Shown here one piece after another: positions 1 to 49,300 of a stretch of 64,000 nt of DNA. The notes beneath the pieces are model-generated. The model saw only the letters and a program-made list of their open reading frames with translations, was not told the DNA's origin and made no database searches. Origin of the DNA: a virus; the IMG/VR virus record IMGVR_UViG_3300002835_000088, positions 28,704 through 92,703 of that record, one strand, 5' to 3'. Made by a program: the position numbers and the translations under genes. Position 1 is the first letter of the stretch; each line of letters starts with the position of its first letter.

Positions 1-2952
1 AGCGCTGGGTCTACTATGACTCTTCACCCAACATCAACTGATGCTACTAACAATACAAACGTTATTGACCTCACAACAGTTGGTACTGGAAGTAATTTCT
101 CTATATCTAGCACAGTAAAAACATTTGCTGATGCTGATGTGAATACAACTAACAACAGAATTGTTGACACTCACAATTTTGTCACTGGTGATGTTGTTAA
201 GTTTGCAGCAAATGGTGGTGTACCACCAACACCTCTAGTTGATGGTTACTACTACTATGTTCGTGCAGTTTCTAACACAGAAATTACTCTGCACACTACA
301 TTGAACGATGCTCAAAATAACCTTCAGGCTCTTGACTTCAGTACACAAGGTACTGGTACAGGGTTCACTCTTACAAACACTGTTCCAGTAGGTCCAATCA
401 TTCGTCGTATCACCGCGATTGGTGGAGATACTCAGATTACAGTGGACCGTCCGTATGCAAACGCATATAGCGCTGTTTCTTACTCATATCCAACATTCGT
501 CTATGTACGTCCTCAGGGCTACTCACTACACCGTCCATTCGATGGTGGCGTTGAGATGTCAGTAGGTGCTAAGACATCGTTTGGTCAGATTGTTCGTCAG
601 ACTCGTAAGTACTTCCGTTACCAATCAGGTAAGGGTATTCAGTCTTCTTGCGGTGTTAACTTCCAGCCTTCAATTGACCTTGAGAGTATGAGACAGTTCA
701 GCTCACTTACAGTTGAATGTAAGACTCGTCGCCCTCACGGACTTGTTTCTGGTCTCTTTATTGTAGTAAATGGTGCAGAAGATTCTTATGGAAATACAAG
801 CACTGTTTACAACGGAGAGTTCCAAGTAACAGTTGTTGACCTAACAACATTCCGATTTACTTCTACACAACCGATTATTGAAAACCGTGCTTACGGATTC
901 CCTCAGTTCTATGTTCGTGAGTGGTCAAACGGTGCTGTCCGTGAAGGTATGTTCGACTTCCAGAACGGTGCATACTTCGAGTTCGATGGTGAAGCTATCT
1001 ACGCCGTACGTCGTTCATCTACTCAGCAGCTAGCAGGTACAGCAGCTGCTCTACAAGGCTCAGAGCTTATCTTTGGAACAAACACAGCGTTCCAAGCTCA
1101 GGTTGAAGTTGGTGACTTTATTGTTATGCGTGGTCAGTCTTATAGAATTACAGAGATTGAGTCAGATACACGTATGTCGATTCGTCCTGAGTATAAGGGT
1201 TCTTCTGGAACAGAGAAGGAATTCAATCCTCAGACTCAAGTCAATACAACCACTGACATCTTTACAATTATTGGTCATGGTTTTGCTGATCGTTTACCAG
1301 TTATCTACAACTCCATTGACGGCGAGCCTATTGGTGGAATGATTAACGGTCGTACATACTATGTTGATTTGATTAACAACAACACCTTTAAACTTGTTGC
1401 TGACCCAGATTCTGAAATTAACGTAGATTTGTCTACTACAGGAACAACCACAGTCCACTCATTTGTACCTGCTAAGTCAGGTATTGTTATGACAAAGACT
1501 GTAGATACCCGAGTTCCTCAAAGCCAGTGGAACATCGACGTTTGCGATGGTTCTGGTCCTACAGGATATAACTTAGATATTTCTCGTATTCAGATGGCTT
1601 ACATTGACTACTCTTGGTACGGTGCAGGTAAGATTCGCTTCGGTTTCAAGACTACAGACGGTCAAGTACAGTACGTTCACGAGTTTGTCCACAACAACAA
1701 CTTGTTCGAGTCATACTTCCGTTCAGGTAACTTGCCAGCTCGTTATGAAGTTGTAACTTACGAGAACCCAACTTATATTCCTTACCTCTTCCACTGGGGT
1801 ACTTCGGTCATCATGGATGGTCGTTTCGATGATGACAACGCGTACCTCTTCACTGGTTCAAGCCAGACTCTGCAGGTAACTGGAACAACCGCTAAGTCAT
1901 TTGCTTCATCTGGTATCAACCTAACAACTGACTTGTTTACTGTACAGAGTCACGGTTTTGCAACTGGTGATTTGCTACAGTTCCAGTCAATTGCTACTAA
2001 CGGATTCCCAGGTAATAACCTTTTGAACCCAGCAACTCAGATTGTTGGTTCTAACACAAGAGCTAACCTGACTAACGATGCGTTGTATGGAGTTCTGGTC
2101 AATTCACCTAACTTGATTCACTTGACCCCACCTAACGTAACAATTAGCCGTGGAACTTCATATGCAATCAATCCTCAGACAATTACTAGTGCTCAAACTG
2201 GTACGACTGTAACTATCGTAACCACACAACCACACAACTTGAGTACTGGTATGTATGTCGGTGTATACGGCTCAACCCGTGTGCCAAATGGTCCGTTCTA
2301 TGTGACAGTTACTAACTCAACTACATTCACATATCAGGCAACCAACGTTTCAACACCTGTGACTGCACTAAATGATCCAGCTATCATCATCTCTGAGGTC
2401 ATTAACTTCACTACCCAAGGAAACACCCAGTACACTTACTTCTTATATCCAAATGGCTCATTGAACAACACATCTGGTCCTAACTACCAGCCATTGTTAT
2501 CAATTCGCCTCTCTCCTTCAGTATCTGAAGGTTTGACAGGTAAGCTTGGTGACCGAGACGTTATCAACCGAATGCAGCTACGTTTGCAGGAAATTGGTGT
2601 GTCTACGACACAGTTGGTTGACTGTAAGGTTCTTCTAAATCCACGTCTAAACAACCTAAACTTCGTGGGTGTAGATACACCTTCCTTGACTCAGATTGTT
2701 GAGCACACAGCTCAGGACACAGTGTCTGGTGGAGTTCAGGTTTACAACTTCCGTGCTGCTGGTGGTGCTAGCGGTGCTGAAGACACCACTGTGGTAGATG
2801 TTTCAAGCCTGTTTGAGTTGTCAAACTCTATTCTTGGTGGAGACTCAATTTTCCCAGATGGTCCAGACATCTTGACAATTGCAGTATCTAGATTGACTGG
2901 TAACGCTACACTAACCTCAGCGAAGATGTCATGGGCAGAAGCTCAGGCGTAG
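1..2952 (+). CDS. Large repeat-built tail/baseplate structural protein (5' partial)
   Basis: The reading frame is open to the left window edge. The first Met codon is at 16 but has no ribosome binding site before it, so the gene probably begins upstream. About 984 codons are visible. The protein is made of beta-rich modules with a recurring His-Gly/Asn-Phe/Leu...Gly signature (HNFVTGDVVKF, HGLVSGLFIVV, HGFADRLPVIY, HGFATGDLLQF, HNLSTGMYVGV), about five copies. They resemble the modules in the minus-strand tail genes here, which match what is often annotated as E1_FCCH-like repeats. A central segment (RQTRKYFRYQSGKGIQ) resembles large tail proteins of T4-like cyanophages, from memory. It is followed after 9 bp by a collagen-like fibre gene, so a virion tail or baseplate role is likely. 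The exact position in the particle is unknown. Confidence 0.75.
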   Translation, partial: SAGSTMTLHPTSTDATNNTNVIDLTTVGTGSNFSISSTVKTFADADVNTTNNRIVDTHNFVTGDVVKFAANGGVPPTPLVDGYYYYVRAVSNTEITLHTTLNDAQNNLQALDFSTQGTGTGFTLTNTVPVGPIIRRITAIGGDTQITVDRPYANAYSAVSYSYPTFVYVRPQGYSLHRPFDGGVEMSVGAKTSFGQIVRQTRKYFRYQSGKGIQSSCGVNFQPSIDLESMRQFSSLTVECKTRRPHGLVSGLFIVVNGAEDSYGNTSTVYNGEFQVTVVDLTTFRFTSTQPIIENRAYGFPQFYVREWSNGAVREGMFDFQNGAYFEFDGEAIYAVRRSSTQQLAGTAAALQGSELIFGTNTAFQAQVEVGDFIVMRGQSYRITEIESDTRMSIRPEYKGSSGTEKEFNPQTQVNTTTDIFTIIGHGFADRLPVIYNSIDGEPIGGMINGRTYYVDLINNNTFKLVADPDSEINVDLSTTGTTTVHSFVPAKSGIVMTKTVDTRVPQSQWNIDVCDGSGPTGYNLDISRIQMAYIDYSWYGAGKIRFGFKTTDGQVQYVHEFVHNNNLFESYFRSGNLPARYEVVTYENPTYIPYLFHWGTSVIMDGRFDDDNAYLFTGSSQTLQVTGTTAKSFASSGINLTTDLFTVQSHGFATGDLLQFQSIATNGFPGNNLLNPATQIVGSNTRANLTNDALYGVLVNSPNLIHLTPPNVTISRGTSYAINPQTITSAQTGTTVTIVTTQPHNLSTGMYVGVYGSTRVPNGPFYVTVTNSTTFTYQATNVSTPVTALNDPAIIISEVINFTTQGNTQYTYFLYPNGSLNNTSGPNYQPLLSIRLSPSVSEGLTGKLGDRDVINRMQLRLQEIGVSTTQLVDCKVLLNPRLNNLNFVGVDTPSLTQIVEHTAQDTVSGGVQVYNFRAAGGASGAEDTTVVDVSSLFELSNSILGGDSIFPDGPDILTIAVSRLTGNATLTSAKMSWAEAQA

Positions 2953-2961
2953 GAGAGACAC

Positions 2962-5355
2962 ATGCCAATTCAGCGACTTGGGATTCAGAACCCAACGGGT
3001 AATACTGATACTGTTCTTGCTACATTTTCTGAAGCGCACCTTGTTTCAGTAATTATTGCCAATAAAGGTGTAGTAGCAGTACCAGCATGTAAAGTAAGTA
3101 TTTGGATTGCACCAGCTAATGCTGTAATCGCTCTTAACTTTGCGTACATTGCTTTTAACTTAGATGTACCTGTTGGCTCTTCTTTTGAAACTTTTAGATT
3201 TGCTGTCAATCCAGGCGACACACTTTGGGTACGTTCTAGTACATCAAATGCTTCATTTAGCTGTGTAGGTATCGCTCAAGAAGACTCTGCTCTTCCTGAA
3301 AACCTCGTACAAACTTTTACTAATAAAGAAATTAGAGGTTTGTATAACACTGTTTATATTGACATTGGAACAACAGCAGAGCGTCGCTCTACTGCTGAAG
3401 TTGGTTATGTTCGATTTAATACAGAACTAAATGGTGGTGCAGGTGCTCTAGAGCAGAAGACTACAAACGGCTGGGAAATTGTAGGTACTGGTGTAACTTC
3501 TGGACCAACTGGTCCAACTGGAGCCGCTGGCGCTACAGGTCCAACTGGACCTTCAGGTGGCCCAACAGGACCTACAGGTGCAGTTGGCCCTACGGGTGCT
3601 ACTGGTCCTGTTGGTTTAGGTGGTAATCAAGGACCAACAGGTCCTACTGGTCCACAAGGTGTAGCTGGTCCGCAAGCAACTAGTGTTAATTTATTAGGTG
3701 GAGTAGCCAACTTTGCGGCACTACCTTCGACAGGTAACACAGCTGACGATGCTTATGTAACTCTTGACACACGAGATGTTTATGTGTGGACGGGGAGTGC
3801 ATGGTCAAATGTTGGACCTATTTATGGTGCTACTGGACCTACTGGTTCAACAGGACCTACAGGAGCCCCATCAAATGTAACTGGTCCAACGGGTGCGACA
3901 GGTCCAGCAGGTAGTGCAGGACCTACAGGTCCTCAGGGAGACCCATCAATTATTCCAGGACCAACTGGTTCACAAGGTGCAATTGGTCCAACGGGAGCAA
4001 CTGGACCGACTGGTGCCACTGGCTCAACTGGACCAACTGGTTCACAAGGAATTACTGGACCTGCTGGAACAAATATTGTTATGAAGGGTAGTGTTGCTGA
4101 TTTCGCTTCTCTACCATCATCAGGAAACACTTTATATGACGCTTATGTAACTTTAGATACAGGCGATACTTACATGTGGACTGGTTCTGCATGGGTCAAT
4201 CTTGGAGCAATTGCTGGACCAGTGGGTCCTACAGGTGCTACTGGTGCCACAGGTTCTACTGGTGATACTGGTCCAACTGGACCTTCAGGTGGCCCAACAG
4301 GACCTACAGGTGCAACTGGACCTGTTGGTCCTCAAGGACCAGGCAGCTCTAGTGTTGCAGTAGTTGAGACAGTAGATTCAACTACATTTGTTGGTCTTTA
4401 TGAAGATTTAACAGGTATTCAAGGTGGTAAAACTAATCAAGGAATCATCTTCGATGCTTCTACACAAAAACTTATTGTGTCTCAGATTGAGACTCCTACA
4501 ATCCTTCCTCCTGCTTCAGGAGTTGGAACATTTACTGTAAGTTCTCCAACAACTTTAACTCTTGATGCAGAGAGTGAAGTTATCTCTAACGCACCATTTA
4601 AACTTTTAAGTTCTACTGTTGCTGCTCTATCTAGCTTAACTGCTAGTGCTGGTGCAATTATTTACGTAAGTGATGCACCAATTGGATCTCAGTTGTACTA
4701 CTACAACGGGACTCAATGGGTTGAGATTGAAGGAACTGGTCAAGGACCTACAGGACCTACAGGTGCTACAGGTCCATCTGGTGGTCCAACAGGTCCTACA
4801 GGAGCAGTCGGTTCAACTGGACCTACAGGCCCTGCAGTAACAGGTCCTACAGGAGCAGTCGGTTCAACTGGACCAACTGGACCAACTGGTGCTACTGGTG
4901 CTACTGGACCTACTGGACCTGCAGGTACTACTAATTTTGGCTCTTTGAATGACATCACCTCTGCTTCAGTAACTGTTGATGAAATTTATGAACCAGCAAT
5001 TACTATGCTACGAGTTGTTAATCAAGGTACAACTGCCTATAGATTTACAAGTCACTACGGATTATCTAATAACCCAACAATTTATGCTATCTCTGGAACT
5101 ACTATTGCTTTCAATCTTGCTAATGCTGGTCACCCATTTGCAATCCAAACAGCAGATGGAAACAACTTTAGTGAAGGTTTAATTCACGTAGACACTAATG
5201 GTGTTGTTTCTACCGATTCAAATGCTCAAGGTAAGAGCTCAGGAACTCTTTATTGGAGAATCAGACAAAACCTTACTGGTGGATATAGATATCAATGTTT
5301 GTCACACCCAGCAATGGGAAACACTATCGTAATTAAAGATATCTCGGCTATTTAA
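2962..5355 (+). CDS. Collagen-like tail fibre with C-terminal cupredoxin-like domain
   Basis: A 797-residue virion fibre candidate. Residues 1-105 form a beta-rich head domain shared with the product of 7011-8597 (both contain SFETFRFA and LWV+SSTS). Several Gly-Pro-Thr/Gly-X-Y collagen-like blocks follow (from about residue 180, also near 290-365, 420-455 and 590-655). They are separated by two near-identical insert modules of the type [19 protein letters not shown]. The last ~110 residues look like a type I copper domain: His724 in GHPFAIQ, then Cys779, His782 and Met785 in CLSHPAM, the Cys-x2-His-Pro-x-Met pattern of amicyanin-like cupredoxins. Copper binding is inferred, not shown. AGGAGA at about 2951 is the ribosome binding site. 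It lies between the large tail protein and the subtilase. Confidence 0.85.
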
Positions 5356-5367
5356 TAGGACTGGTAC

Positions 5368-6960
5368 ATGAGTGAATACAAAGAGTACACAGTTACTACA
5401 GAAAGTCTAGAGCTTACTGATGCTGTGTGGGACGCTCTTCTTACTGAGGGAAGTAATCTAACTACTATTCCTATTAGAGCCGTGGAAGTGGCAAACGATA
5501 GGCCAGAAAACCCTTTAAACACTTCATACTGGCTAACAGATAGAGAAGCAGAGTTTTTAAGACAAGACCCTCGCGTTTCCGATGTACAAGACCTAAGCAT
5601 TTTTAAACCACAAAAGTTAGCTTTTCAAACTGGAACTTTTGATAAAACTACAAATCAAACTGGTCCTAAAGTTAACTGGGGATTGTTGAGACATTCAAAG
5701 CTATCTAATGTTTATGGAAGTAGTCTTTTAGACCCAGGTGGAACCTATGACTATGTTTTAGATGGTTCTAATGTTGACGTTGTAATTATAGATAGCGGTA
5801 TTCAAGCCAACCACCCTGAATTTTTATATTCTGATGGTAGTGGTGCAAGTAGAGTAAACCTTGTAGATTGGTTTGCAGTCAGTGGTGTTTCTGGAAGTAT
5901 GCCCTCAGGGTTCTATCAAGATTATGATGGTCATGGAACTCACGTTGCTGCTACTGTTGCTGGTCTTAATTTTGGATGGGCAAAAAATGCAAGAATTTAT
6001 TCTATAAAGCTTGAAGGATTAAGAGCTCCTAGTGATCCTGGAGAAGGGTTTGACGTAGCAACCGCTTTTGATGTGTTAATTGGTTGGCACAATAACAAAA
6101 CAAATGGAAGACCTACTGTTGTTGTTAATAGCTGGGGGTATGGAGTATTTCATAGAGCAGATTTAGAAGCCTTTTCATTTGGCTTAGATGAATCAGAAAC
6201 TCTTTACGCTATAAATGGAGGGGTTTACCGAGGTGTTGCTTGGGAAGGTACTGTATTAGACACTGCAAAAGGTCACACTGGTGCTCTTGTTGCTCCATCT
6301 ACTTATAGATATCCATTTAGAGTTGCTGCTGTTGATGCTGACATTAGAACTGGCGCTGAAGCTGGAATTTTATTTGTCAACGCTGCTGGAAATGAGTTTA
6401 CAAAAATTGATGTTCAAGGTGGATTTGATTACAACAACTACATCCTCACTGACTTTGGCGCTTTTACATACCACAGAGGTGGCACACCAGGAGCTAGTAT
6501 TACAGCACGAGAGAGTGTTTTTACTGTAGGTTCTGTTGACCACCAAACAGTCACTGGAACTTCAACAGACAGAAAGTCAAACTTCAGTAATTCTGGTCCA
6601 GGAGTGACAGTTTATGCCGCTGGGTCCAGAATTATGAGTGCAATGAGCCAAGTTAATGACGATAACTCTAACTACCCGTACTTTTTAAATGGCTCTTTTA
6701 AGCAGCAACTTTTGTCTGGTACCTCCATGGCAGCTCCTCAAATTGCAGGTATAGCGGCTCTTGTATATCAAATGCACCCAGACTGGACCCCAAGACAGGT
6801 CATCAACTTCATCAAAGATAAGTCATTTTCTAGTCTTTTTAAGACTGACCTCACAAATGACTATACGAATGTCCATAGCGTGCATGGTGGCGCTAACCTG
6901 ATAGCCTACGTACCTATGGCTTCACAGAGAAAATTCTCCTTCCAAAGAGCCACGGTATAG
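5368..6960 (+). CDS. Subtilisin-like serine protease (S8 family) in tail-fibre operon
   Basis: A 530-residue protein with the complete S8 catalytic set: Asp142 (VVIIDSGI), His189 (DGHGTHVAA), oxyanion Asn342 (NAAGNE) and Ser453 (SGTSMAAPQIAG). Residues 1-100 form a pro-region-like extension without an obvious signal peptide, so it is probably not Sec-exported. The location, 12 bp after one collagen-like fibre gene and 50 bp before the next, suggests a virion-associated protease. It could process fibres or digest host surface protein. Similar subtilases occur among large-phage structural genes. The start is supported by AGGA about 12 bp upstream. Function as a protease is well supported; its substrate is unknown. 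Confidence 0.9.
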   Translation: MSEYKEYTVTTESLELTDAVWDALLTEGSNLTTIPIRAVEVANDRPENPLNTSYWLTDREAEFLRQDPRVSDVQDLSIFKPQKLAFQTGTFDKTTNQTGPKVNWGLLRHSKLSNVYGSSLLDPGGTYDYVLDGSNVDVVIIDSGIQANHPEFLYSDGSGASRVNLVDWFAVSGVSGSMPSGFYQDYDGHGTHVAATVAGLNFGWAKNARIYSIKLEGLRAPSDPGEGFDVATAFDVLIGWHNNKTNGRPTVVVNSWGYGVFHRADLEAFSFGLDESETLYAINGGVYRGVAWEGTVLDTAKGHTGALVAPSTYRYPFRVAAVDADIRTGAEAGILFVNAAGNEFTKIDVQGGFDYNNYILTDFGAFTYHRGGTPGASITARESVFTVGSVDHQTVTGTSTDRKSNFSNSGPGVTVYAAGSRIMSAMSQVNDDNSNYPYFLNGSFKQQLLSGTSMAAPQIAGIAALVYQMHPDWTPRQVINFIKDKSFSSLFKTDLTNDYTNVHSVHGGANLIAYVPMASQRKFSFQRATV

Positions 6961-7010: not shown

Positions 7011-8597
7011 ATGGCAGCAAAACGCTTAGGTCTTGCTACTCCCAATGCAAACATAGCTACTCTGCTTGCTACCAACGACACAGTTGGTGTTGCTTCTGTA
7101 ATTGTTTCAAACAGAGCTAATATTCAGAGTCTTGTTACTATCTACGTTGAACCAGCCGAAGCCCTAGGTGTGGAGGCAACTCGCTCCTACATTGTTGACA
7201 ATTTGGCTGTTTCTGTGGGTCAATCCTTTGAGACATTTAGATTTGCTTTAAATGTTGGAGACCAGCTTTGGGTTAAGTCCAGCACATCTCTTGCTAATTT
7301 TTCTGCAACTCTTGTTTATGATCAAGCTGGTAGAGCAAATATAACTTATTCTTCAAATCAACCGGGATTCCCTTCTGTAGGAGATATTTGGATTGATTCT
7401 GACACTCAAGAAGTTAATTTTTATACAGGTTCAGGATTTAACACTGTAGCAAGTATTGCTCCTTCAGGACCAACAGGTCCCGCTGGTCCATCTGGTCCAA
7501 CGGGCCCATCAGGACCAACTGGTCCCCAAGGGTCTAGCGTTCGTATTCTTGGAACATACGCAACTCTTAATCTTCTTCAAGCTGATAACCCAATTGGTGC
7601 AATTGGTGATGCTTATGTCGTTGCTTCAGAATTTGTTTATGCATGGTCAGACCTTAACCAAGAGTGGGCGCTCGTTGGTCCAATTGGTGTAACTGGCCCT
7701 ACAGGTTCTACTGGACCTACAGGTCCACAGGGTATTGGTGGAGCAGATGGTGCAACTGGCGCTACTGGACCTGCTGGTGAACCAGGAGGACCAACTGGTG
7801 CTGCTGGTCCAACAGGTCCAACTGGTTCACTCGGACCTACTGGTCCAACTGGTCCTGAGGGGCCAACAGGTCCTACTGGTGCTATTGGTGAAACAGGAAT
7901 AATTTCTAGTGCAGTTCCTCCAGCAGATTTATCAATTATTTGGGTAGATACAACTGTAGATTCAGCAATTCTTACCCACGCTAGCACTCATGCTGCTGGC
8001 GGTAGTGATGAGGTGACCCTATCTACAAGTCAAATTTCTGGGTTAAACACGAGACTTGGTGATTTAGATATTCTTTCTAGTGGAGAGGGCAGTATTGATA
8101 GAAAAGCTCCTCTTACTGGTGTTGCATATGGAGCATCAGGAAACCTTATTCTAACTTATCGTCGAGCAATCAAAACAGAAACTATTACAAAACTTTCTAT
8201 GGCTTGCGGTACTGCTGCTGGTGCAACCCCAACACTAGTGAAATATGGAGTCTATTCAGTAAATGACTCTACTGGAGATTTAACTTTGGTAGCGTCTACT
8301 GCAAACGACACATCAATTTTTTCAACCGCTAACAGCGCTTTTGAAGTTAACTTAACTTCATCATTTACCAAGACAGCTGGTAATTTGTATGCATATGCAG
8401 TTGTACTGGTAAGCACACAAACGCTTCCTACAGTTATTGGTCACGCACATGTTGCATCTGCTGGTGTTAACGCAATTTTGGCCTTACCTCCAAGAATTAC
8501 AGGTTTAGTTGCGGCTCAAACAGATTTACCAAGCTCTATTTCTGCAGGTTCTGTAACAGCTTCTAACCGTGCACTGTGGACGCACGCCCTACCTTAA
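7011..8597 (+). CDS. Collagen-like tail fibre, paralogue of the 2962-5355 product
   Basis: A 528-residue protein. The N-terminal ~110 residues are clearly related to those of the upstream collagen-like protein (RLG start, [23 protein letters not shown]), implying the same attachment site on the virion. Gly-Pro-Thr/Gly-Pro-Ser collagen-like stretches cover about residues 155-180 and 225-295, split by a small module around [15 protein letters not shown]. The C-terminal 230 residues are a non-collagen beta-rich tip. It begins with [14 protein letters not shown], a motif common just before phage fibre tips. AAGGAG lies 8 bp before the ATG. The tip is a likely receptor-binding region; that is inference. 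Confidence 0.82.
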
Positions 8598-8616: not shown

Positions 8617-9078
8617 ATGCCAGTCTTAAAAAAATATGATCTTGATGATCAAATTTGGAAACCTATTGCTGTTGGAGCTACAGGTCCTACTGGTCCTACT
8701 GGCTTTGTTGGGCCTACTGGCCCAACGGGTGCACAGGGTGTTACTGGGCCTCAGGGGGACTGGTCAACTGCTCAACCTGTTGTGACAAAAAGCGCTTCTT
8801 TTATTTTAGAGCTAACTGATGCTGGAAAAATTTTAAAATGTGATAACGGTGCTTCTATGATTGCAACAATACCTGTTGAAGCATCAGTTGCTTTTCAAGA
8901 CGGTCAAAAAATTGACTTTATTCAATATGGAGCAGGTCAGCTTACCGTCGCTGGGGCAGTCGGCGTGACAGTAAGAGCAACTCCAACCAATAAATTGAGA
9001 GCTCGCTACTCTGTAGCTTCTGCCGTAAAAATTGGAACTAACGAGTGGATTCTCGTCGGAGACTTGGCACTAATTTAA
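8617..9078 (+). CDS. Short collagen-like fibre protein
   Basis: A 153-residue protein with a short N-terminal anchor, one collagen-like run (residues ~20-50, GPTGPTG pattern) and a ~100-residue beta-rich C-terminal domain. That domain resembles small phage fibre-tip or trimerisation domains (ILKCDNGASMIATIP...AGQLTVAGAVGVTV). AGGAG is placed 8 bp before the start. It is the third collagen-like gene in 6.2 kb and directly precedes the carbohydrate-binding-like gene. Its exact role, minor fibre or adaptor between fibres, cannot be read from sequence. Confidence 0.8.
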   Translation: MPVLKKYDLDDQIWKPIAVGATGPTGPTGFVGPTGPTGAQGVTGPQGDWSTAQPVVTKSASFILELTDAGKILKCDNGASMIATIPVEASVAFQDGQKIDFIQYGAGQLTVAGAVGVTVRATPTNKLRARYSVASAVKIGTNEWILVGDLALI

Positions 9079-9080
9079 AA

Positions 9081-9710
9081 ATGCCAATTAATGTCGGGTC
9101 CATTGCTGGTGCAGGTTATTTAAAAAACCCTGCAGAAGCTTTTAATTTAGATTACAGGGTTAATTATATTAAAAACCCGACTTTTGAAGTAGACATCTCT
9201 GACTGGACACCTTTTGCTGGAACTACCTTAGAAAGAGATACAAACGAATTTAACACAGGGTCAGCTTGTCTTAAAGTTACAAACACCTCTGGAGGAGGTG
9301 TTCAAACACTTGAAAGAATCCCATTTATTGACACTTCAGAAGAGTGGACTGTCAGCGCTTATGTAAAGCTTGATGCTCTAAATGACAATGCGACTTACTA
9401 TCTTCGTCATCTTCAATACACCACAAGCAATGCTTCAGCTGCTATATCTAGTGGAAATATTGGAATTCAAGCCCTAACTAGTGCTGATGGCTGGGTTAGA
9501 TTGAGCGGGTCTTTTACTAGAACCTCTGGAGCTAATTTTTTTGCACTAAGAATTGTGACCACTTCAGCATCTAATACAGACGTATTTTTTGTTGACTCTG
9601 TTATGGCAGAAAGGTCTTCCACTTTGGGGACCTATTTTGATGGCTCACTAGACGGATTTTGGACTGGAACTCCCCACTCAAGCTATAGCGGTGCTACCCC
9701 ATACGTGTAA
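9081..9710 (+). CDS. Carbohydrate-binding-module-like virion protein
   Basis: A 209-residue protein. I chose the ATG at 9081, directly after the preceding stop, over an upstream in-frame start that would overlap the previous gene. No ribosome binding site is visible, so translational coupling is likely. From about residue 27 the sequence has the beta-sandwich CBM4/9-like pattern: NYIKNPTFEVDISDW, then alternating hydrophobic strands and a terminal FFVDSVMAERS strand, typical of domains that bind surface glycans. As part of the fibre block it probably mediates adsorption to host surface polysaccharide. The fold assignment rests on pattern recognition only. Confidence 0.65.
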   Translation: MPINVGSIAGAGYLKNPAEAFNLDYRVNYIKNPTFEVDISDWTPFAGTTLERDTNEFNTGSACLKVTNTSGGGVQTLERIPFIDTSEEWTVSAYVKLDALNDNATYYLRHLQYTTSNASAAISSGNIGIQALTSADGWVRLSGSFTRTSGANFFALRIVTTSASNTDVFFVDSVMAERSSTLGTYFDGSLDGFWTGTPHSSYSGATPYV

Positions 9711-9742: not shown

Positions 9743-10318
9743 ATGACATATCCCAACTGGTTTGAAAATGATGGTCAAGAGAACTTTAAAAACCATCTAC
9801 TAGAGTTTTTAAATAAACCTGCTCGAATGTTGCAAATAGGCGCATACACAGGGGATGCTTCTGTGTGGCTTTGGGACAACATATTACGTCACAACCCAGA
9901 CTCGGTGTTGATTGATGTAGACACGTGGGAGGGTTCTGACGAACCTGTTCATAATCAGATGAACTGGGAGTCTGTAGAAAGTTTTTATGATGTAAAAACT
10001 TTAGTAGGGCAGCAGAGCAAAAAAATTATTAAAGTCAAGTCTACAAGTGATTGGTTTTTTAAAAATAATTTAGAGAAGTATGACTTTGTGTATGTTGATG
10101 GGGATCATACTTCCTATGGTGTAATAAAAGATGCAATAAGCGCTTACGAGTGTTTAAATGTAAATGGAATAATAGCTTTTGATGATTATCAATGGTCCGC
10201 TGGGCTTGGCTATTTAAATGAGCCAAAGTTGGCAATAGATGCCTTTAATGCAGTTTATTCGGACCGACTCGAACTTTTAGTTGACGGATATCAGCGTTGG
10301 TATAGGAAGACAAGGTAG
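9743..10318 (+). CDS. Class I SAM-dependent methyltransferase (TylF/Methyltransf_24-like)
   Basis: A 191-residue protein with a Rossmann-type motif I (QIGAYTGDAS, residues 31-40), an acidic strand (VLIDVDTW), the motif YVDGDH at 117-122 and FDDY at 146-149. This is the arrangement of small sugar or natural-product O-methyltransferases of the Methyltransf_24/TylF type. AAAGGACG precedes the ATG. It opens a three-gene enzyme cassette (methyltransferase, glycosyltransferase, halogenase) attached to the tail-fibre block. Modification of a glycan or of a virion protein is inferred; the substrate is unknown. Confidence 0.75.
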   Translation: MTYPNWFENDGQENFKNHLLEFLNKPARMLQIGAYTGDASVWLWDNILRHNPDSVLIDVDTWEGSDEPVHNQMNWESVESFYDVKTLVGQQSKKIIKVKSTSDWFFKNNLEKYDFVYVDGDHTSYGVIKDAISAYECLNVNGIIAFDDYQWSAGLGYLNEPKLAIDAFNAVYSDRLELLVDGYQRWYRKTR

Positions 10319-10327
10319 GATGCTCAC

Positions 10328-11404
10328 ATGAAAGTAGCTATATACACAATCGCATTAAATGAACGACAGTTTGTTGATAAATGGTATGAAGCTTCAAAAG
10401 AAGCTGATTACTTGTTAATAGCCGATACAGGCTCCACAGACGGCACCGTTGAGCGTGCAAAAGAGCTTGGAATTAATGTAGTCGATGTTCGAGTATCCCC
10501 TTGGCGTTTTGATGATGCTAGAAACGCAGCAATGGCAGCTTTACCAATCGATATTGATATGTGTATCTCCCTTGATATGGATGAAGTAATTACTCCTAAC
10601 TGGCGTCCATTGCTTGAAGCTGCATGGCAACGTGGAGTAACACGTCCTCGCTATAAGCATATTTGGTCTTGGAATGATGATGGGACTCCAGGTTTGGAGT
10701 TTAGCTATGACCACATTCATACTCGTAAAAATTATCGTTGGCGTCACCCAGTGCATGAGTGTTTATATGTATACGGACGCGAGGAAGTACAAGAGTGGAT
10801 TGAAGGTTTAGAGACTCACCACCACCCAGACCCAACAAAGTCGCGCTCTCAGTATCTACCGTTGTTAGCTCTTTCTGTTCAAGAAGATCCATATAACGAC
10901 CGCAATGCGTTCTACTATGGTCGAGAACTTTATTTTTATGGTCGCTACCAAGAAGCAGCAGTAGAGCTAAAGCGACATCTTGAACTCCCAACAGCTCGGT
11001 GGGCACCAGAGCGTGCTGCATCAATGCGCTTTATTGGTAAGAGTCTTCCTGCAGAAGCAGAGATTTGGTTTCGTAAAGCTATCGATCAAGCTCCAGGACG
11101 ACGTGAACCTTTTGTTGATTTAGCAGAGTTGTACTATCAACGTAAAGATTGGCAGAAGTGTTATGAAGCTGCTAAAGATGCTATTGCCATTGCTGAGAAA
11201 CCTTTAGAGTATTTGTGCGAAGCAAAAGCATGGGGAGCAGCCCCGCACGATTTTGCTGCAATTTCTGCTTACTATTTAGGTAAGTTTGAAGAAGCAGTGG
11301 AGCATGCAAAGAACGCTTTTAGCATCGAGCCAGATAATGAAAGACTTGCAGAAAATCTTAAATTTTGTCTTAGCGCTGTAAATCCAGAAGAAAAGAGTGT
11401 CTAG
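10328..11404 (+). CDS. Family 2 glycosyltransferase with C-terminal TPR-like repeats
   Basis: A 358-residue protein. The N-terminal half has GT2 (GT-A fold) features: YTIALNE at 6-12, ADTGSTDGT at 32-40, FDDARNAA at 61-68 and the metal-binding DMD at 83-85. This resembles SunS-like and other cytosolic GT2 enzymes. The C-terminal half (about 200-350) has helical TPR-like repeats (APGRREPFVDLAELYYQRKD, then a Tyr/Ala-rich repeat). It follows the methyltransferase by 9 bp and overlaps the halogenase gene by one base, so the three are probably co-translated. Likely role: adding a sugar to a virion protein or phage-altered glycan (inference). Confidence 0.85.
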   Translation: MKVAIYTIALNERQFVDKWYEASKEADYLLIADTGSTDGTVERAKELGINVVDVRVSPWRFDDARNAAMAALPIDIDMCISLDMDEVITPNWRPLLEAAWQRGVTRPRYKHIWSWNDDGTPGLEFSYDHIHTRKNYRWRHPVHECLYVYGREEVQEWIEGLETHHHPDPTKSRSQYLPLLALSVQEDPYNDRNAFYYGRELYFYGRYQEAAVELKRHLELPTARWAPERAASMRFIGKSLPAEAEIWFRKAIDQAPGRREPFVDLAELYYQRKDWQKCYEAAKDAIAIAEKPLEYLCEAKAWGAAPHDFAAISAYYLGKFEEAVEHAKNAFSIEPDNERLAENLKFCLSAVNPEEKSV

Positions 11405-12912
11405 TGAAATTTGTAGTCTGTGGTGGTGGAACAGCTGGATGGCTTACCGCTTTAACCATTCACTCTAGTAATCCAAAGTTTCATGAAGTAGTGGTTATAG
11501 AATCACAAAAAATAGGAATTATTGGAGCTGGAGAGGCTACAAGCGGTTTTCTCTACGATGTATTAGATGGCTCTACTTTATTTGGAAATAATCAAACAAT
11601 GAACCCAAACAAAGTGGCTTTTGATTTTGCAGAGTTTGCTAAAAAAGTCGATGCTGTACCTAAGTACGCACTTAAACACATCAACTGGGCTAAAGACAAA
11701 GGCTCTTATTGGGCACCAATTAACGGCTCAGAAACTTCTAAGCGCTCTCCTGACCATCTATTTAATTATGTTGTAACAGAGTTTGGTCCTGAAAAAGCTT
11801 ATCTATCTTCTGTATTAGGGCAGTCTTATGATCTAAATAAACTTCCGCCAGCGGGTGGAGGTTATGGGTTTCAGTTTGATGCCCATAAAGTAGCTAAATT
11901 TTTACGAGAGTATATAACTACAACCACAAAAACTACTCATATAGATTCAATTATCAAGGATGTTACTGTTACTAGCGATGGTCTAGTTGAAAGCGTAATT
12001 ATCGAAGATGGTCAAGTCATTGAAGGAGATTTTTTCATTGACGCTACTGGATTTGTTAGATTGTTGGCAAACAAGGTCGGGATTGGGTGGACAGACTACA
12101 AAAACCAACTTCTTGTAGATAGAGCTATGCCTTTTATAGTTCCATACAAAGAAGAAGAAAAAGTACAACCTGTAACAGTTGCAGAAGCTCTTTCTTCTGG
12201 TTGGATGTGGCGAACTCCTACAGGAGGCCGCCGAGGTTGTGGGTATGTCTACAGCAGTGCGTTTATTTCTGAGGATGAAGCTCAAAAAGAAGCTGAAAAA
12301 ATTATGGGGCACCCTATTGAGCCAATTAAGCATATTAAATATGAATCAGGCCGAGTGGACCAATTTTGGAAAGGCAATGTTTTGGTAGTTGGCCTTGCAA
12401 GCTCTTTTATTGAACCTTTAGAGGCAACCAGTATTCATGCAACTATTATGCAAATTTTTAGTTTCTGTCAAGAGTATCTTTCAGATACAAAAGAAAAAAC
12501 TTTAAACCCTGCTTCAATACAAAAATACAACGCTAAAACTGAAAAAATGTATGAGTATTATAAAGACTTCACGGTGTTCCACTATCAAGGTGGAAGAGAA
12601 GATTCCGAGTTTTGGAAAACTATTAAGTTCGACAAGATTACCTCTCCTGCTGTAGAAAACTACATCGAGAGGTCAAAGAGTAGAATTCCTAGTGCTTTAC
12701 ATTTTATGGATTTTTGGGGTGTAGATTCTCTATGGAAGTGGACCTTAGCTGGTCTTGGGTATGTTTCAAGAGAACAAGCAATGAGTGAGTTGAAACAATT
12801 TGATCAATTTGAATTTGCTCAAGCTCAATACAGAGCATTTAGAGAAGACATGAGAAAAATTCATGAAAATAGTAGACCTTTTGAGATGAATCCCAAAGAC
12901 TTTATTATTTAA
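11404..12912 (+). CDS. Flavin-dependent (tryptophan-type) halogenase
   Basis: A 502-residue protein starting with GTG at 11404, overlapping the preceding TAG. It has the FAD-binding GGGTAGW at residues 7-13 and GAGEATS at 41-47. Lys87 aligns with the catalytic lysine position, eight residues before Trp95. It also has GFQFDAHK at 155-162, WMWRTP at 267-272 (the halogenase WxWxIP box with Thr for Ile), DFFIDATGF at 209-217 and EPLEATS at 337-343. These are family hallmarks, and length is normal. It needs reduced flavin, which no visible neighbour supplies, so a host reductase is implied. Flavin halogenases are known in some cyanophages. Substrate and halide are unknown. Confidence 0.9.
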   Translation: MKFVVCGGGTAGWLTALTIHSSNPKFHEVVVIESQKIGIIGAGEATSGFLYDVLDGSTLFGNNQTMNPNKVAFDFAEFAKKVDAVPKYALKHINWAKDKGSYWAPINGSETSKRSPDHLFNYVVTEFGPEKAYLSSVLGQSYDLNKLPPAGGGYGFQFDAHKVAKFLREYITTTTKTTHIDSIIKDVTVTSDGLVESVIIEDGQVIEGDFFIDATGFVRLLANKVGIGWTDYKNQLLVDRAMPFIVPYKEEEKVQPVTVAEALSSGWMWRTPTGGRRGCGYVYSSAFISEDEAQKEAEKIMGHPIEPIKHIKYESGRVDQFWKGNVLVVGLASSFIEPLEATSIHATIMQIFSFCQEYLSDTKEKTLNPASIQKYNAKTEKMYEYYKDFTVFHYQGGREDSEFWKTIKFDKITSPAVENYIERSKSRIPSALHFMDFWGVDSLWKWTLAGLGYVSREQAMSELKQFDQFEFAQAQYRAFREDMRKIHENSRPFEMNPKDFII

Positions 12913-13453
12913 GTTGTTGCTTCTTAAGTTTTTTAGCTAAACGTTTCTTTTCTAGCTTTAAAGCTTTTTTCTCTCGAATGCGTGCTCTTTTTTCAGATTT
13001 ATCAATACGCTCTTGTTTATAAGCTTCAATAGCATTTACGCTAGTTCGACTGCGCCAAGAAAAGCCACACACCGTACATGTGACTATCTTGGCGACAGTC
13101 CACCTACCACCACCAGGAATTTCCTGAGAACTTGTTTCCAGCTTTGAAGGACGTGCTGAGCAATAAGGACAGTGCGGGTATCTACGGCGTTTTATCTCTT
13201 CACCCTTATAAGAAACAGAAAGTGCTCGACGTATTTCACTTTCGTCTTTGCCGCCCCATGTGCCCCAAATTTGTCGGTGCTCTAAAGCCCACTGCAGACA
13301 TTGCGCTCTTACGGGACATTCATAGCAAAGATTTTTTGCATCATATTTTTGCTTTGGGTCTTTGGAGAAAAACCAGTCTCTATAATGATTATTTCCTGGC
13401 TGAGCACAAAGGGCTTCAGACTGCCATTCTATGTTATTAGCTGGTTTCCACAC
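12905..13453 (-). CDS. WhiB-family iron-sulfur regulator with C-terminal zinc ribbon
   Basis: A 182-residue protein with a GTG start at 13453. Cys16, Cys43, Cys46 and Cys52 form the WhiB C...CxxCxxxxxC 4Fe-4S site, followed by IWGTWGG at 62-68, the WhiB turn. An extra CxxC...CxxC zinc-ribbon pattern (Cys95, Cys98, Cys126, Cys129) and a Lys/Arg-rich tail (150-182) extend it well beyond the usual ~90-120 residues. WhiB proteins bind RNA polymerase sigma region 4 and tune transcription in Actinobacteria; phages use them to redirect host transcription. The 3' end overlaps the convergent halogenase gene by 8 bp with no strong terminator between. Confidence 0.88.
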   Translation of the reverse strand: MWKPANNIEWQSEALCAQPGNNHYRDWFFSKDPKQKYDAKNLCYECPVRAQCLQWALEHRQIWGTWGGKDESEIRRALSVSYKGEEIKRRRYPHCPYCSARPSKLETSSQEIPGGGRWTVAKIVTCTVCGFSWRSRTSVNAIEAYKQERIDKSEKRARIREKKALKLEKKRLAKKLKKQQLK

Positions 13454-15486: not shown

Positions 15487-16500
15487 TTAAGCTAACTGTT
15501 TTAGTGTTTTAGTTAATTTTTCGTTTATATCATCTTGGCTAGGAAGTTGATCAAGATATGATTGTTTTTGACTAAACGCTAGTTCTGTCCGTTCCACCGT
15601 GTCCATAAGCTCTACGCTTGTTGCAAGATGTCTCCACTCTTCTCCCATATACCCCGTGATTTTCCAATCGTGAACTACAGGAACCCCCTGAGATAGAGAT
15701 TGAGCAAGTGCAGGAGACCACCAAGATTCATTATTTCTATAGGTAGGTACAATCGTTCCGACTGCTCCACGGATATGAGTGAGAGTCTCTGATTCAACTT
15801 CCCAAACGTCTTGTTTGATTGGGACAACCTTTTTTGTCAGCATTTGAGCGTAGCTTTTTCCAGAAGAATTAAAAGAATCGCACACCCAATACTCGTCACT
15901 GAGGTAGTAGTTTTTTGTTTTTTCTGGCTGAAGAAGGATGTACGAATCCACACTTACGCCTACTAGGCTTTCTGCAGAAAGATTAGGAAGATATTTAGTT
16001 AGTAGGTCTGCAGTTGACCATGGGTAGGATGGGTAAAAAGTTGTGGGCCACGGTTCATTACTCAGATATTCAACAAAACTTTTAATCTCGGCTTTAAGCT
16101 CTGGATTGTCTACAACATCAGAATAACTTTTTCTTCTGTCATAAAAACTTTTAAAAGTTGACGCCTCGGTGGTCCAAGCATTTAGAGACGGAGGAATTTT
16201 AAAACTCTCTGGGGCATCAATTAAAAGAGATAGGTTTCCTATTTCTTTACACTTATTTGCTGTTATAAAAGCAGGATAAATTTTGTTAGCAGAGATGCTG
16301 GTTGTTGGGGCAATACCAACTATTACCAAATCAAACTTTTCTAGATAAGACTTTTCCCAGTTAATTTGAGGGGAGGCAAAAGTAACGTCAACGCCAGCAT
16401 TTTTAAAATTTTGACCTAATAAGTTACTAAAAGTAGGAGTTCTCTCTGCATGCTTTTTAGACGCTTGCTGTGCAGTACATCCAGTAATTAAAACTTTCAT
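15487..16500 (-). CDS. Glycosyltransferase-like protein (GT-B type, tentative)
   Basis: I place the start at 16500 (MKVLITG) because AAAGGA lies just upstream; an in-frame ATG at 16515 has no ribosome binding site. The product is 337 residues. The N-terminus (KVLITGCTAQQ...GVDVTFASPQ...FDLVIVGIAP) has Rossmann-like strands. The C-terminal region (IVPTYRNNESWWSPALAQSLSQGVPVVHDW) resembles the acceptor/nucleotide-sugar region of GT-B enzymes. Similar genes occur in actinophages without a tested function. It may modify DNA bases, a virion protein or a glycan. It stands alone between the replication block and the small genes. Confidence 0.55.
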   Translation of the reverse strand: MKVLITGCTAQQASKKHAERTPTFSNLLGQNFKNAGVDVTFASPQINWEKSYLEKFDLVIVGIAPTTSISANKIYPAFITANKCKEIGNLSLLIDAPESFKIPPSLNAWTTEASTFKSFYDRRKSYSDVVDNPELKAEIKSFVEYLSNEPWPTTFYPSYPWSTADLLTKYLPNLSAESLVGVSVDSYILLQPEKTKNYYLSDEYWVCDSFNSSGKSYAQMLTKKVVPIKQDVWEVESETLTHIRGAVGTIVPTYRNNESWWSPALAQSLSQGVPVVHDWKITGYMGEEWRHLATSVELMDTVERTELAFSQKQSYLDQLPSQDDINEKLTKTLKQLA

Positions 16501-16523
16501 AATGTCCTTTTTCATTTATGTGA

Positions 16524-45749: not shown

Positions 45750-46355
45750 TTATTCCTCTACCGCGTACTCTGCTAAATTATCTTTAGTAATTTTTTCACC
45801 AGCGTCCCAGCGGGCTACGAGGTCTTTTCCTTTTTCAACATCAATGTCTGTGATTTCTGAGCCGTCATACTCTTCTGACATCTCAGGAGTGGCAGGAACC
45901 CACTTACCCTCGTTGCGGAAGAAAGTACCAAGCCCAGCAACCGTGAAGACAACAGCTGTGACGTCACCAGCATCGTTAGACAAAGCCTCTACGGCTTGTT
46001 CTAAACCGACTTGCTCGTCGATTACCATCATTTCCTCCATCATTTGCGGGGTTAGAGTCAGTCCATAACCAGTTAGAAGCGCAGAGTCATCCTCTGTGAA
46101 CTTTCTGATTCGATAGGTACCGTCGAACGCAGCAAACTCAATTGTACCCTCGGTTTTCTTAACTAACTCTGGATCAACTGGGTAAAACATGCCGCGTCCT
46201 CCACGAACGAGGATGCCGCTATCGGCTTCATCGTCGTCTCCCTCATATACAAACTGAACTACATCGAATAGAGGGAATTTGCTTTGGTTTTCTCCAGATA
46301 GTTTTTCAATAACACCTGGAGTCCCAAAAATTACTTCTTCAGAGATAAGAGCCAT
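45750..46355 (-). CDS. Hypothetical acidic head-locus protein
   Basis: A 201-residue strongly acidic protein. Its first half has strands around PLFDVVQFVYEGDDDEADSGILVRGGRGMFYPV; the second is helical. No family was recognised. It sits between the 3114-residue protein (TAATG overlap, with the ribosome binding site inside the upstream Lys-rich tail) and the protease polyprotein, so it is probably co-translated and packaged with the head. Confidence 0.6.
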   Translation of the reverse strand: MALISEEVIFGTPGVIEKLSGENQSKFPLFDVVQFVYEGDDDEADSGILVRGGRGMFYPVDPELVKKTEGTIEFAAFDGTYRIRKFTEDDSALLTGYGLTLTPQMMEEMMVIDEQVGLEQAVEALSNDAGDVTAVVFTVAGLGTFFRNEGKWVPATPEMSEEYDGSEITDIDVEKGKDLVARWDAGEKITKDNLAEYAVEE

Positions 46356-49300
46356 TATTTCTTAGCCCCTTTCTTTTTCTTTTTGCCAGAAACCATGTCT
46401 GCCAAATCAGTAAGACCTTCAGTCATAAGACGCTCGATGAGCTTCTCTCGGATAGCTGCTGGCATTGACATGGATGAAATGTCTGCCCATGAAAGGTTCT
46501 TCTTAAACATCAACTCTCCGTAGTTGTTGCTTAGAGACTGAACGATATCCTCTGAGTCAGATTGAAGCTGACCATACTTATCGGAGTTGTTCTTGTAGTA
46601 ATCCAAACGACGAAGAACTTTTCGTGAATCGAAGTACAAAGCAAAGCTTGTAGAAGTGCTTGAACCTTTAGATGATGGAGAGGCAAAAACATAGTTTCCG
46701 CCGTTAGCATCAATATCTGCAGATGAAGACATTCCGCTCTTGTTAATTCCGTTCATCCAACGAGTAGCAGTTGCGTAGACGCCTCCTGATGTAACAACGT
46801 TGTAAAACCAGTCAACAGTGTTGGTCTGGTCTCCACCCTTCCAATTGTGAACAATGTATGGAGAGAATCCAGTTTTTTCCATCAACTTTTCTACAGCGGA
46901 CTCTGGCATGTAATAGTTAACTCGACCACGAGCAAGTGGGTCTACGACAACTTCAACATCAGCTGCTGTGAATCCATATTCATCCTTAATGTACTCAAGG
47001 GTCTTCTCACGGAGTTCACCTGCGTAGTTCTTCTTTCCATCGGTAGAAGAGCCAAGCAACCAAATCATTTTGTTTTCAATAACACCTTGAACATCAGATT
47101 CAAGTGCTGGACGAACTTGAGAGATTCCACCCAAAGAGTTAAGGGCCTCAGCTACATCCTCAGAAGTTGCATCTGCTGGAAGATAGATTTCTGCTTTGTT
47201 GTGGAAGGAAACAGCGTATGGACTACTACTGTGGTACTTAAAGAAGTCCACTTCAGTATCATCAATAGACTTACTTGCTCTGTGAAGAAGGAAAGTTCCC
47301 TTTCCAGCAGGTCCTTCAAAAGTTACACCGTTTTTATTTGAGTCAACTGTGCTTGTATCCCAAGTGTCTTTCCAAACGAGAGAACCATCTGCCTTCTTCT
47401 CCCACTTATCCAAACGCAATGCTTTTGTTTTAGTTACATTCGGGTCAGAATCTGCTTTAGCAACTATTTGCTTTCCAGCCCAGTTAGTTAAAGTGAACTG
47501 AAGACGAATCTTCTTTTCGCCATTCTTGTCTGTAACCATTCCAACGTGGACTTCTAGGTCCTCGATTGAATCTGAGTCAAGAAGAGTAGTTGAACCATTT
47601 GCAGCTTCTCCAGCATTGTCATTCTTTGCCATCTTCAACGAGTCTTCTAGTGAAGGCACATCTGGATGTGGAGATTGCGAATAGTCAGGTGCGGCATCTA
47701 GTGTTTGAACAGCAAAACCTGGACCGTTGACAGAGAACTTATCCTTTAGAGCTTTAGCTTCTGCTTCCAATTGAGCTTTCTTCAAAGCATCTGCTTGCTT
47801 CTTTGCATAAGCCTCGCCTTTAGCCTTTGCTGCAGCCTTAGACTTGTCAAAAAGTGTTGGGTCAAGAGTAATGTCTAGTTCTTTTGCTTGCTCAGGAGTA
47901 ATAAACTTCTCACGGGACCACAACTTGTCAGACTTTGTGCTCTTAGTCTGTCCTGCAAGAGGTCCATCAAAGTATGAAACAAAAATTTCACCACTTTTTG
48001 CATCTTGTTTTGAAATTACACCGTAGCTAGTCAAGTCTTGGTCAGAATCGTTTGGGCTTACGTTTTGAACCAAAATTCCTGGAACCATGTTCTTAGAGTT
48101 TGGGTCTTTAATAAACTCGCCACTTAAAAAACTCTTGTAATCGCTGTAATCATTTGCTCCATAAGCAGCTAAGTGACCAACAGAGTTTTTTTCTACTGCT
48201 TTAGATTCAACATCTTTGATTGCAGTAGCACCAGCAAGGTCAGTACCTTCAAAAGTTGGAAGTTCAACTGCAGGTTCTGGATTGTTTACAGGTGCAGGAC
48301 TTGTTGGCTCTTTAGGAGTTGTTGGTGTTCCACCACTTCCACCAGTTGGGCCATCATCTTCTGGCTTGTCAGGCTTTACACCTGAAGTGTCCTGAATATC
48401 TAGATAGGTTGAAACCTTCCAGTTCTTCTTGCCATCATCCCATTGAACCTTGGCAACGTCTGTGTAGGTGTAACCCTGTGGATTTGATTTGCTCTTAGAT
48501 GTAACAAGCTCATCCTTAAGTGAAACAACCTTTCCAGTCTTACCAGTCTTAGTATCTTTGACAATCATTCCAACCTTAATTGGAGTCTTGCCATCAGCAG
48601 ATACATAAGCACCCTTCTTTGTTGGAATTGCAGAAGGAGCGATAGTTCCTGGAGTTTCTGGCTTAGATTTTGAGATAACCTTGCTTGGAGTTACCTTTGC
48701 TTTCCACTTCTCGTTCTCAATACGGCTAGAAAGAGCTGTGTATGAGTGCCAACGTCCTGCAAGAGTTTTAACTCTTGTAGTTCCATCAGAACCCTTAATT
48801 CTGTGATAGACACTAAAGGTGTTGTCAGAGTTGCGCTTCACCATTGTATAAATAGTTGAGCCAGCAGGTGTTACATTCTCAGCAACAACAATGTCACCGT
48901 TTTCGATGACAGAGATTCCCTTCTCATCTTTAACCTTTGCCCAAATCAAATCTGGGTCTAAAGGCTTCTTTAACTCTTCAGCAAGTGCATCAGCATCGAT
49001 TGGCTCCACTTCATCTTCTGGAGCAGCATCTTCATCTGGTGTCAGTGCTTGAGCAAGGTCAGACTGAATCTTTTCTTCAGGAGTTGCATCTGCAGGAGCA
49101 GATACAGTGTTGATGTCCTCAAGAATTGAATCGATAAGCTCATCGTTAGAGCCTTCCTGCCCCTTGAGAGACTCAAGTAGGTCCTTTGTCTTGCCCTTGC
49201 TACCAAAAAGCTTTTCTGCAAGAGCTGAAACTTCGTCAAGAACCTTTTGTTTCTCAACTGGATCAATCTGAGCAGCTTCTGGTGCCTGTGGAAGTTCCTT

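Follow-up and report, generated by a model that had tools for sequence, protein, structure and literature searches.

A methyltransferase-glycosyltransferase cassette with an accessory flavin-dependent halogenase at the end of an actinophage tail fiber module, and its possible role in virion modification

The viral contig IMGVR_UViG_3300002835_000088 (92.7 kb; G000) encodes, at the end of its tail fiber module, three consecutive enzymes: a small methyltransferase (MT), a family 2 glycosyltransferase (GT), and a flavin-dependent halogenase (HAL). We analyzed these genes in a stretch of 64,000 nucleotides, G000:28704-92703, referred to below as the window (G numbers denote viral contig records, L numbers denote loci on viral contigs, and plain coordinates are those of the window; Table 1). 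Comparison with related viral contigs shows that the MT-GT pair is the stable core of the cassette and that HAL is an accessory gene. The cassette may serve to modify the phage's own adhesion apparatus, with the GT acting on virion proteins and with MT and HAL as tailoring enzymes, a reading to which we assign a probability of about 0.48. Its best-supported core, protein-directed glycosylation and methylation at the fiber module, appears reasonably likely; the view of HAL as a tailoring enzyme of the same product rests on genomic position and is plausible, with the odds slightly against it.

Conservation and layout of the cassette

A search of viral contigs with HAL returned 21 loci (54 to 100% identity), in which the order MT, GT, HAL, WhiB is kept wherever the contig extends far enough; about 20 viral contigs besides that of the window have homologs of all three enzymes, arranged in the same way. 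The corresponding search with the GT gave 67 loci, which were merged at a GT identity of at least 97% into 41 clusters, 39 of them with both flanks. MT lies upstream of the GT in 34 of these 39 clusters, and a WhiB-like gene is found downstream on the opposite strand in 32. HAL adjoins the GT in 21 clusters, following it in 16 (slot A) and standing between MT and GT, or just before the GT, in 5 (slot B), among them phage DSL-LC01. The distance between HAL and the GT is at most 15 nt in 20 of the 21 HAL-bearing clusters, often with a translational overlap, and the remaining one (L063) has a phrog_7084 gene interposed. These counts rule out the trio as a single conserved unit. Co-conservation with the fiber genes, on which an earlier note on this DNA had staked its case, holds for the MT-GT pair but only in part for HAL, whose representatives fall into two lineages and occupy either side of the GT.

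Between close relatives, and where dS could be estimated, dN/dS is about 0.02 to 0.09 for MT, GT, and HAL, values that are rough because dS is near saturation; all three genes are under purifying selection. The recurrent gene order, the low dN/dS, and the invariant catalytic residues described below indicate that the cassette is real and not a chance arrangement. In the window, the three reading frames are all on the plus strand, with the one- to few-base junctions that the earlier note had reported: MT and GT are 9 nt apart, and the GT stop codon and the GTG start codon of HAL share one nucleotide at 11404. The gap between the preceding carbohydrate-binding module (CBM) gene and MT is 32 nt, and HAL and the convergent WhiB gene share 8 nt at their 3' ends. 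A scan of the cassette for promoters and terminators stayed at chance level and is uninformative as to an operon.

The WhiB-like gene and the closeness to the Actinomycetia phage DSL-LC01 (“Nanparkviridae”), whose helicase, nuclease, and RecA-like genes are 72 to 84% identical to those of the window phage, identify the virus as an actinophage; its hosts are probably aquatic actinobacteria. DSL-LC01 is an assembly from Dishui Lake water with a host that is only predicted (PMC10611076). It has the same fiber-halogenase-GT-WhiB layout (GT 62% and WhiB 56% identical), but its halogenase is only 26% identical to HAL, belongs to the other lineage, precedes the GT, and has no MT alongside; the published annotation treats it as a stand-alone metabolic gene (PMC10611076). 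Elsewhere in the window, a 342-aa protein (15487-16515, minus strand) has no Pfam match and a weak similarity (22% identity) to the DSL-LC01 glycosyltransferase that adjoins UDP-galactopyranose mutase, and a 3114-aa open reading frame (46355-55699, minus strand) is unusually large for a phage.

The glycosyltransferase and the methyltransferase

Matches to the Pfam families Methyltransf_24, GT2 plus TPR, and PF04820 bear out the enzyme classes named in the earlier note. MT scores 49.4 bits against PF13578 (cutoff, 26.3), and its motifs GAYxGD and DGDHT are conserved; its PDB matches, to caffeoyl-CoA O-methyltransferases, are only weak.

In the GT, a DxD-type metal/nucleotide-sugar motif, D83-M84-D85-E86 (DMDE), is invariant in 18 sequences, as is an HHH motif. 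The structural model (pLDDT 86; alignment of the window and viral-contig sequences, without DSL-LC01) consists of a GT-A core and a helical repeat domain. Its best structural matches are ThuS (Z 18.8) and SunS (Z 18.7), over about 260 residues with an rmsd of 4.4 to 5.0, and a family profile matches GmaR (E 3.5e-5) and SunS (E 2.6e-3). The Pfam domains, the model, and the SunS and ThuS matches agree in the architecture of a GT2-TPR polypeptide glycosyltransferase, a GT-A domain followed by a C-terminal TPR domain. SunS, ThuS, and GmaR share this arrangement, with a TPR-type helical domain after the GT2 catalytic domain, and they act on polypeptides: SunS is itself a prophage-encoded peptide S-glycosyltransferase, and GmaR is a flagellin GlcNAc-transferase. 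For GmaR, the TPR part of this GT-TPR protein has been proposed to recognize the protein substrate, flagellin (PMC9638930). However, identity of the GT to SunS and ThuS in the structural alignment is only 12 to 16%, the acceptor of those two enzymes is a bacteriocin peptide, and GmaR is also an anti-repressor; unlike all three, the window GT is grouped with an MT, an optional halogenase, and fiber genes. In two phages that have this GT but no MT, another glycosyltransferase is encoded next to it, one Fringe-like (PF02434; L089:5279-5968) and one of the PF11397 GlcNAc type (L091:3880-5322).

The most serious competing explanation, in our view an unlikely one, is that the GT, MT, and, where present, HAL alter envelope glycopolymers or glycolipids of the host and thereby block superinfection. 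The catalytic domain of the GT also matches the polysaccharide glycosyltransferase WrtF (Z 17 to 18) and the teichoic acid glycosyltransferases TarS, TarP, and RmlT (Z 15 to 16), and these matches weigh against virion modification by giving a host-surface acceptor some standing. Such a role is often assigned to phage glycosyltransferases (PMC7029224, PMC10202952), and the DSL-LC01 genome has a UDP-galactopyranose mutase and another glycosyltransferase. SunS and ThuS are nevertheless the better matches, and their alignments cover more residues and reach into the helical domain; moreover, the genes stand at the end of the fiber module, and HAL has no obvious role in host-surface modification. 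Because the lead of SunS and ThuS over the other glycosyltransferases is small, a protein acceptor can only be called favored.

The halogenase and its two lineages

HAL scores 280.8 bits against PF04820 (cutoff, 21) and has a full-length halogenase fold. Its AlphaFold2 model (pLDDT 86) is closest to SttH (Z 46.3, 473 residues aligned), followed by BrvH (Z 44.4), PrnA and RebH (Z about 43 to 44), and VirX1 (Z 34.3). The FAD motif GxGxxG reads GGGTAG, and K87 and E337 are invariant in all 60 of 60 aligned halogenases; from motif context, we take them to be the equivalents of K79 and E346 of PrnA. The WxWxIP motif reads WMWRTP in the window HAL and WMWRTD in L018 and is present as WxWxIP in L047, L050, and L061. 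Of the substrate motifs of tryptophan halogenases (Trp1, Trp2, and Trp4, as defined in PMC8269204), HAL has ATSGFL in place of Trp1 ATIPSL, about APING in place of Trp2 HLFGN, and no Trp4; halogenases without the Trp4 motif, such as BrvH, show no interaction with tryptophan (PMC8269204). On these motifs, the reading of HAL as a canonical tryptophan halogenase of the PrnA/RebH/PyrH/Thal type is rejected. Since these motifs are missing, a substrate other than tryptophan is likely and the name “tryptophan halogenase” is unsafe; HAL, with its predicted activity, is best named a flavin-dependent halogenase without substrate assignment.

The same motifs bear on a second and quite unlikely alternative, in which HAL halogenates a free host metabolite (tryptophan, indole, or another aromatic compound) and MT and GT derivatize the product or are colocated incidentally. 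HAL does belong to PF04820, whose phage members are usually annotated as tryptophan halogenases. Such genes have been viewed as metabolic (PMC10452541, PMC10611076), a view also proposed for cyanophage halogenases, and the nearest cyanophage enzymes, those of Syn1 and S-PM2, sit among tRNA and metabolic genes. However, apart from the missing motifs, no biosynthetic pathway genes are seen around the cassette, no flavin reductase of PF01613, the only reductase family searched, was found in six related records, and the presence of two lineages at the same GT opposes incidental placement. With no such reductase found, FADH2 is presumably supplied by the host.

In the tree, the enzymes in slot A (lineage A, with the window HAL) are nearest to the Syn1/S-PM2 halogenases, and those in slot B (lineage B) group with the halogenase of Pelagibacter phage HTVC008M. 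A tree that forced A and B into one clade was rejected by the approximately unbiased (AU) test (P = 0.004), which speaks against a single origin of the cassette halogenases, with the reservations that outgroup phages were thinly sampled, that branches are long, and that the grouping was chosen after the first tree. The bacterial relatives found are mostly enzymes from Pseudomonadota with about 30% identity, and the DSL-LC01 halogenase, used as a query, had no matches in the viral contigs. VirX1 and the cyanophage halogenases share with HAL the PF04820 fold, the FAD motif, and the Lys and Glu residues, but HAL is not of the VirX1 type: the VirX1-source Syn9/Syn10 enzymes form a separate, distant branch. 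In the flanks seen of the cyanophage halogenases, no GT or MT is annotated.

No argument for joint action of the halogenase and the GT is stronger than the placement of two halogenase lineages next to one and the same GT; insertion at a hot spot on the border is a less likely account. Under this third, rather improbable alternative, the MT-GT pair modifies the virion, the fiber/WhiB border is an insertion hot spot, and HAL is unrelated cargo. The border also holds phrog_7084, a DUF6171 protein, a CMD-domain protein, and small proteins, and the near-identical phage G003 has a second halogenase about 59 kb from the first. Against it, HAL abuts the GT specifically and does so in both lineages, whichever side it occupies. 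Modification of phage DNA bases against restriction is very improbable: it has been suggested for glycosyltransferases of Nanopelagicales phages (PMC10202952) and MT weakly matches PHROGs labeled DNA methyltransferase, but the GT is of the GT-A/TPR type, MT is a Methyltransf_24 protein by Pfam, and the genes are located with fiber genes, not replication genes.

A second halogenase, of B type, is encoded in the long relatives G001, G002, and G003; in G005, the halogenase is of B type only and lies away from the GT, and none was seen as a second copy in several others, among them G006 (118 kb). The window contig and G003 are collinear, with 98.8 to 100% identity in the left part that was compared, and the second halogenase of G003 falls about 18 to 20 kb past the left end of the window contig; the window's phage probably also has a second halogenase there. 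At this site in G003, phrog_7084 is followed by the halogenase, a 313-aa protein, and then a few small genes and a virion structural protein. The B-type copies of G001, G002, and G005 likewise lie far from the GT, next to phrog_7084 and close to a virion structural gene. A phrog_7084 gene also adjoins the halogenases of cyanophages Syn9 (E 1.8e-71), Syn10, and S-CREM1 (E 1.8e-56). In the loci analyzed here, it separates GT from HAL in L063 and MT from GT in L046 and L075, which have no halogenase; it occurs in haloviruses as well and in HF2 lies near virion genes, in a stretch whose annotation shows no halogenase. The annotation of one cyanophage copy is nucleotidohydrolase, and a profile search of PDB with phrog_7084 gave no significant match. 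Its C-terminal GTPIxQ pattern is at most a possible hint of dUTPases.

Candidate target and implications

Where the earlier note had counted five fiber genes upstream of the cassette, there are four fiber or virion structural proteins, a CBM4_9 protein, and an S8 subtilase (Table 1). The subtilase, apparently one of the five in that count, is embedded in the fiber module and kept in many relatives, and it might process fibers or attack host surface proteins. Judging from 209-aa homologs in L004 and others, the true start of the CBM4_9 gene is probably near 9081.

Table 1. Features of the cassette region in the window and related genes on other viral contigs
Feature	Location	Strand	Basis
Virion structural protein, upstream of fiber genes	16-2952	+	phrog_5838 virion structural protein, E 8.5e-143
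Collagen-like tail fiber protein, candidate glycosylation target	2962-5355	+	Pfam Collagen, 1e-19; phrog_819 tail protein; 69 GXY triplets, Thr third in 61%
Subtilisin-like S8 protease (subtilase), not fiber	5368-6960	+	PF00082, E 2.7e-30; phrog_9158
Collagen-like fiber protein	7011-8597	+	33 GXY triplets, Thr third in 52%; Pfam, PHROG matches
Short collagen-like fiber tip protein	8617-9078	+	Pfam, PHROG matches; triplet count
Carbohydrate-binding CBM4_9 adhesin	9045-9710	+	PF02018, E 1e-9
MT, class I SAM-dependent methyltransferase (Methyltransf_24), 191 aa	9743-10318	+	PF13578, E 9.5e-13
GT, GT-A (family 2) glycosyltransferase with C-terminal TPR domain, 358 aa	10328-11404	+	GT2, 1.3e-5; TPR; phrog_13126, 6.6e-117
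HAL, flavin-dependent halogenase, lineage A, 502 aa	11404-12912	+	PF04820 Trp_halogenase, 2.6e-83; phrog_2928, 1.1e-90
WhiB-like regulator, convergent cassette border	12905-13453	-	PF02467, E 4.3e-17
Second B-lineage halogenase, G003	L181:8319-9953		
Second B-lineage halogenase, G001	L182:8552-10120		
Second B-lineage halogenase, G002	L183:8054-9619		
B-lineage halogenase away from GT, G005	L184:8166-9734		
phrog_7084	L063:7077-7787		
phrog_7084	L075:5221-5964		
phrog_7084	L181:7684-8388		
phrog_7084	L027:7490-8278		
phrog_7084	L099:4588-5325		

Collagen-like proteins are encoded near the GT in 35 of the 38 loci examined, some of which lack MT or HAL; the other three are truncated contigs. Most of them have Thr in the third triplet position in 40 to 70% of cases (52 to 61% in the window). 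The earlier note had argued from position for modification of the virion surface. The conserved location at the end of the fiber module, the resemblance of the GT to polypeptide glycosyltransferases, the Thr-rich collagen-like neighbors, and the lack of biosynthetic pathway genes around the cassette speak for that view; as a fixed unit, the trio does not stand.

We infer the protein acceptor of the GT, its specific target, the order of steps, the substrates of HAL and MT, and the benefit as follows. The GT would transfer a sugar from a nucleotide donor to a phage-made polypeptide, the likeliest acceptors being threonines in the collagen-like GPT/GAT repeats of the fibers encoded just upstream. 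MT might next O-methylate this glycan or an amino acid side chain, and HAL, using FADH2 from host reductases, could place a halogen on an electron-rich group of the same fiber or glycan, either a protein Tyr or Trp or an aromatic substituent. Halogenation would be an optional step, gained by different phages from two lineages and inserted on either side of the GT. The probable benefit would be a variable virion surface, in terms of adsorption, protease resistance, or escape from host recognition.

Several further observations weigh against this reading. HAL is missing from 18 of the 39 clusters and hence is dispensable for the core function. In L084 and L085, the MT-GT pair has the opposite orientation, pointing in the same direction as WhiB and converging with the fiber genes. 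The pTM of the GT model, 0.65, makes the relative orientation of its two domains uncertain. The co-occurrence of collagen-like proteins with the GT is a weak, suggestive sign of the target, because collagen-like fibers are common in phage tails. Finally, activity on a sugar is not known for any flavin-dependent halogenase.

Phage-encoded modification of virions is already known, and the link to a halogenase is the interesting part. The actinophages Che8, Corndog, and Myrna are reported to use their own glycosyltransferases to glycosylate virion capsid and tail tube proteins, and the passages on these systems mention no methyltransferase or halogenase partner (PMC12363180, PMC11256854). A tblastn search with the window GT gave no mycobacteriophage match at E 1e-5. 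Sugars on collagen-like repeats have a viral precedent in the mimivirus collagen glucosyltransferase L230 and a bacterial one in Bacillus BclA (PMC9614988). L230 hydroxylates Lys and adds Glc, whereas the window repeats are Thr rich.

Among cyanophages, flavin halogenases are widespread, and one of them, VirX1, has been well studied in vitro; we know of no native substrate of any phage flavin halogenase. The gene neighborhood described here offers a concrete candidate substrate for HAL, a collagen-like fiber or its glycan, near a seemingly protein-directed GT, and close relatives with HAL, without it, and with a HAL of the other lineage provide natural controls. The wider proposal, that phages acquired flavin halogenases on repeated occasions to tailor the products of a protein glycosylation cassette, giving halogenated, methylated glycoprotein tail fibers, is a doubtful one at present. 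If true, a native role would be known for a phage halogenase for the first time, as would a halogenated virion, and phrog_7084 would become a halogenase-associated partner common to these phages and cyanophages. Halogenation would then join the known virion modifications, and a halogenase for polypeptides or glycopeptides would be of interest for biocatalysis.

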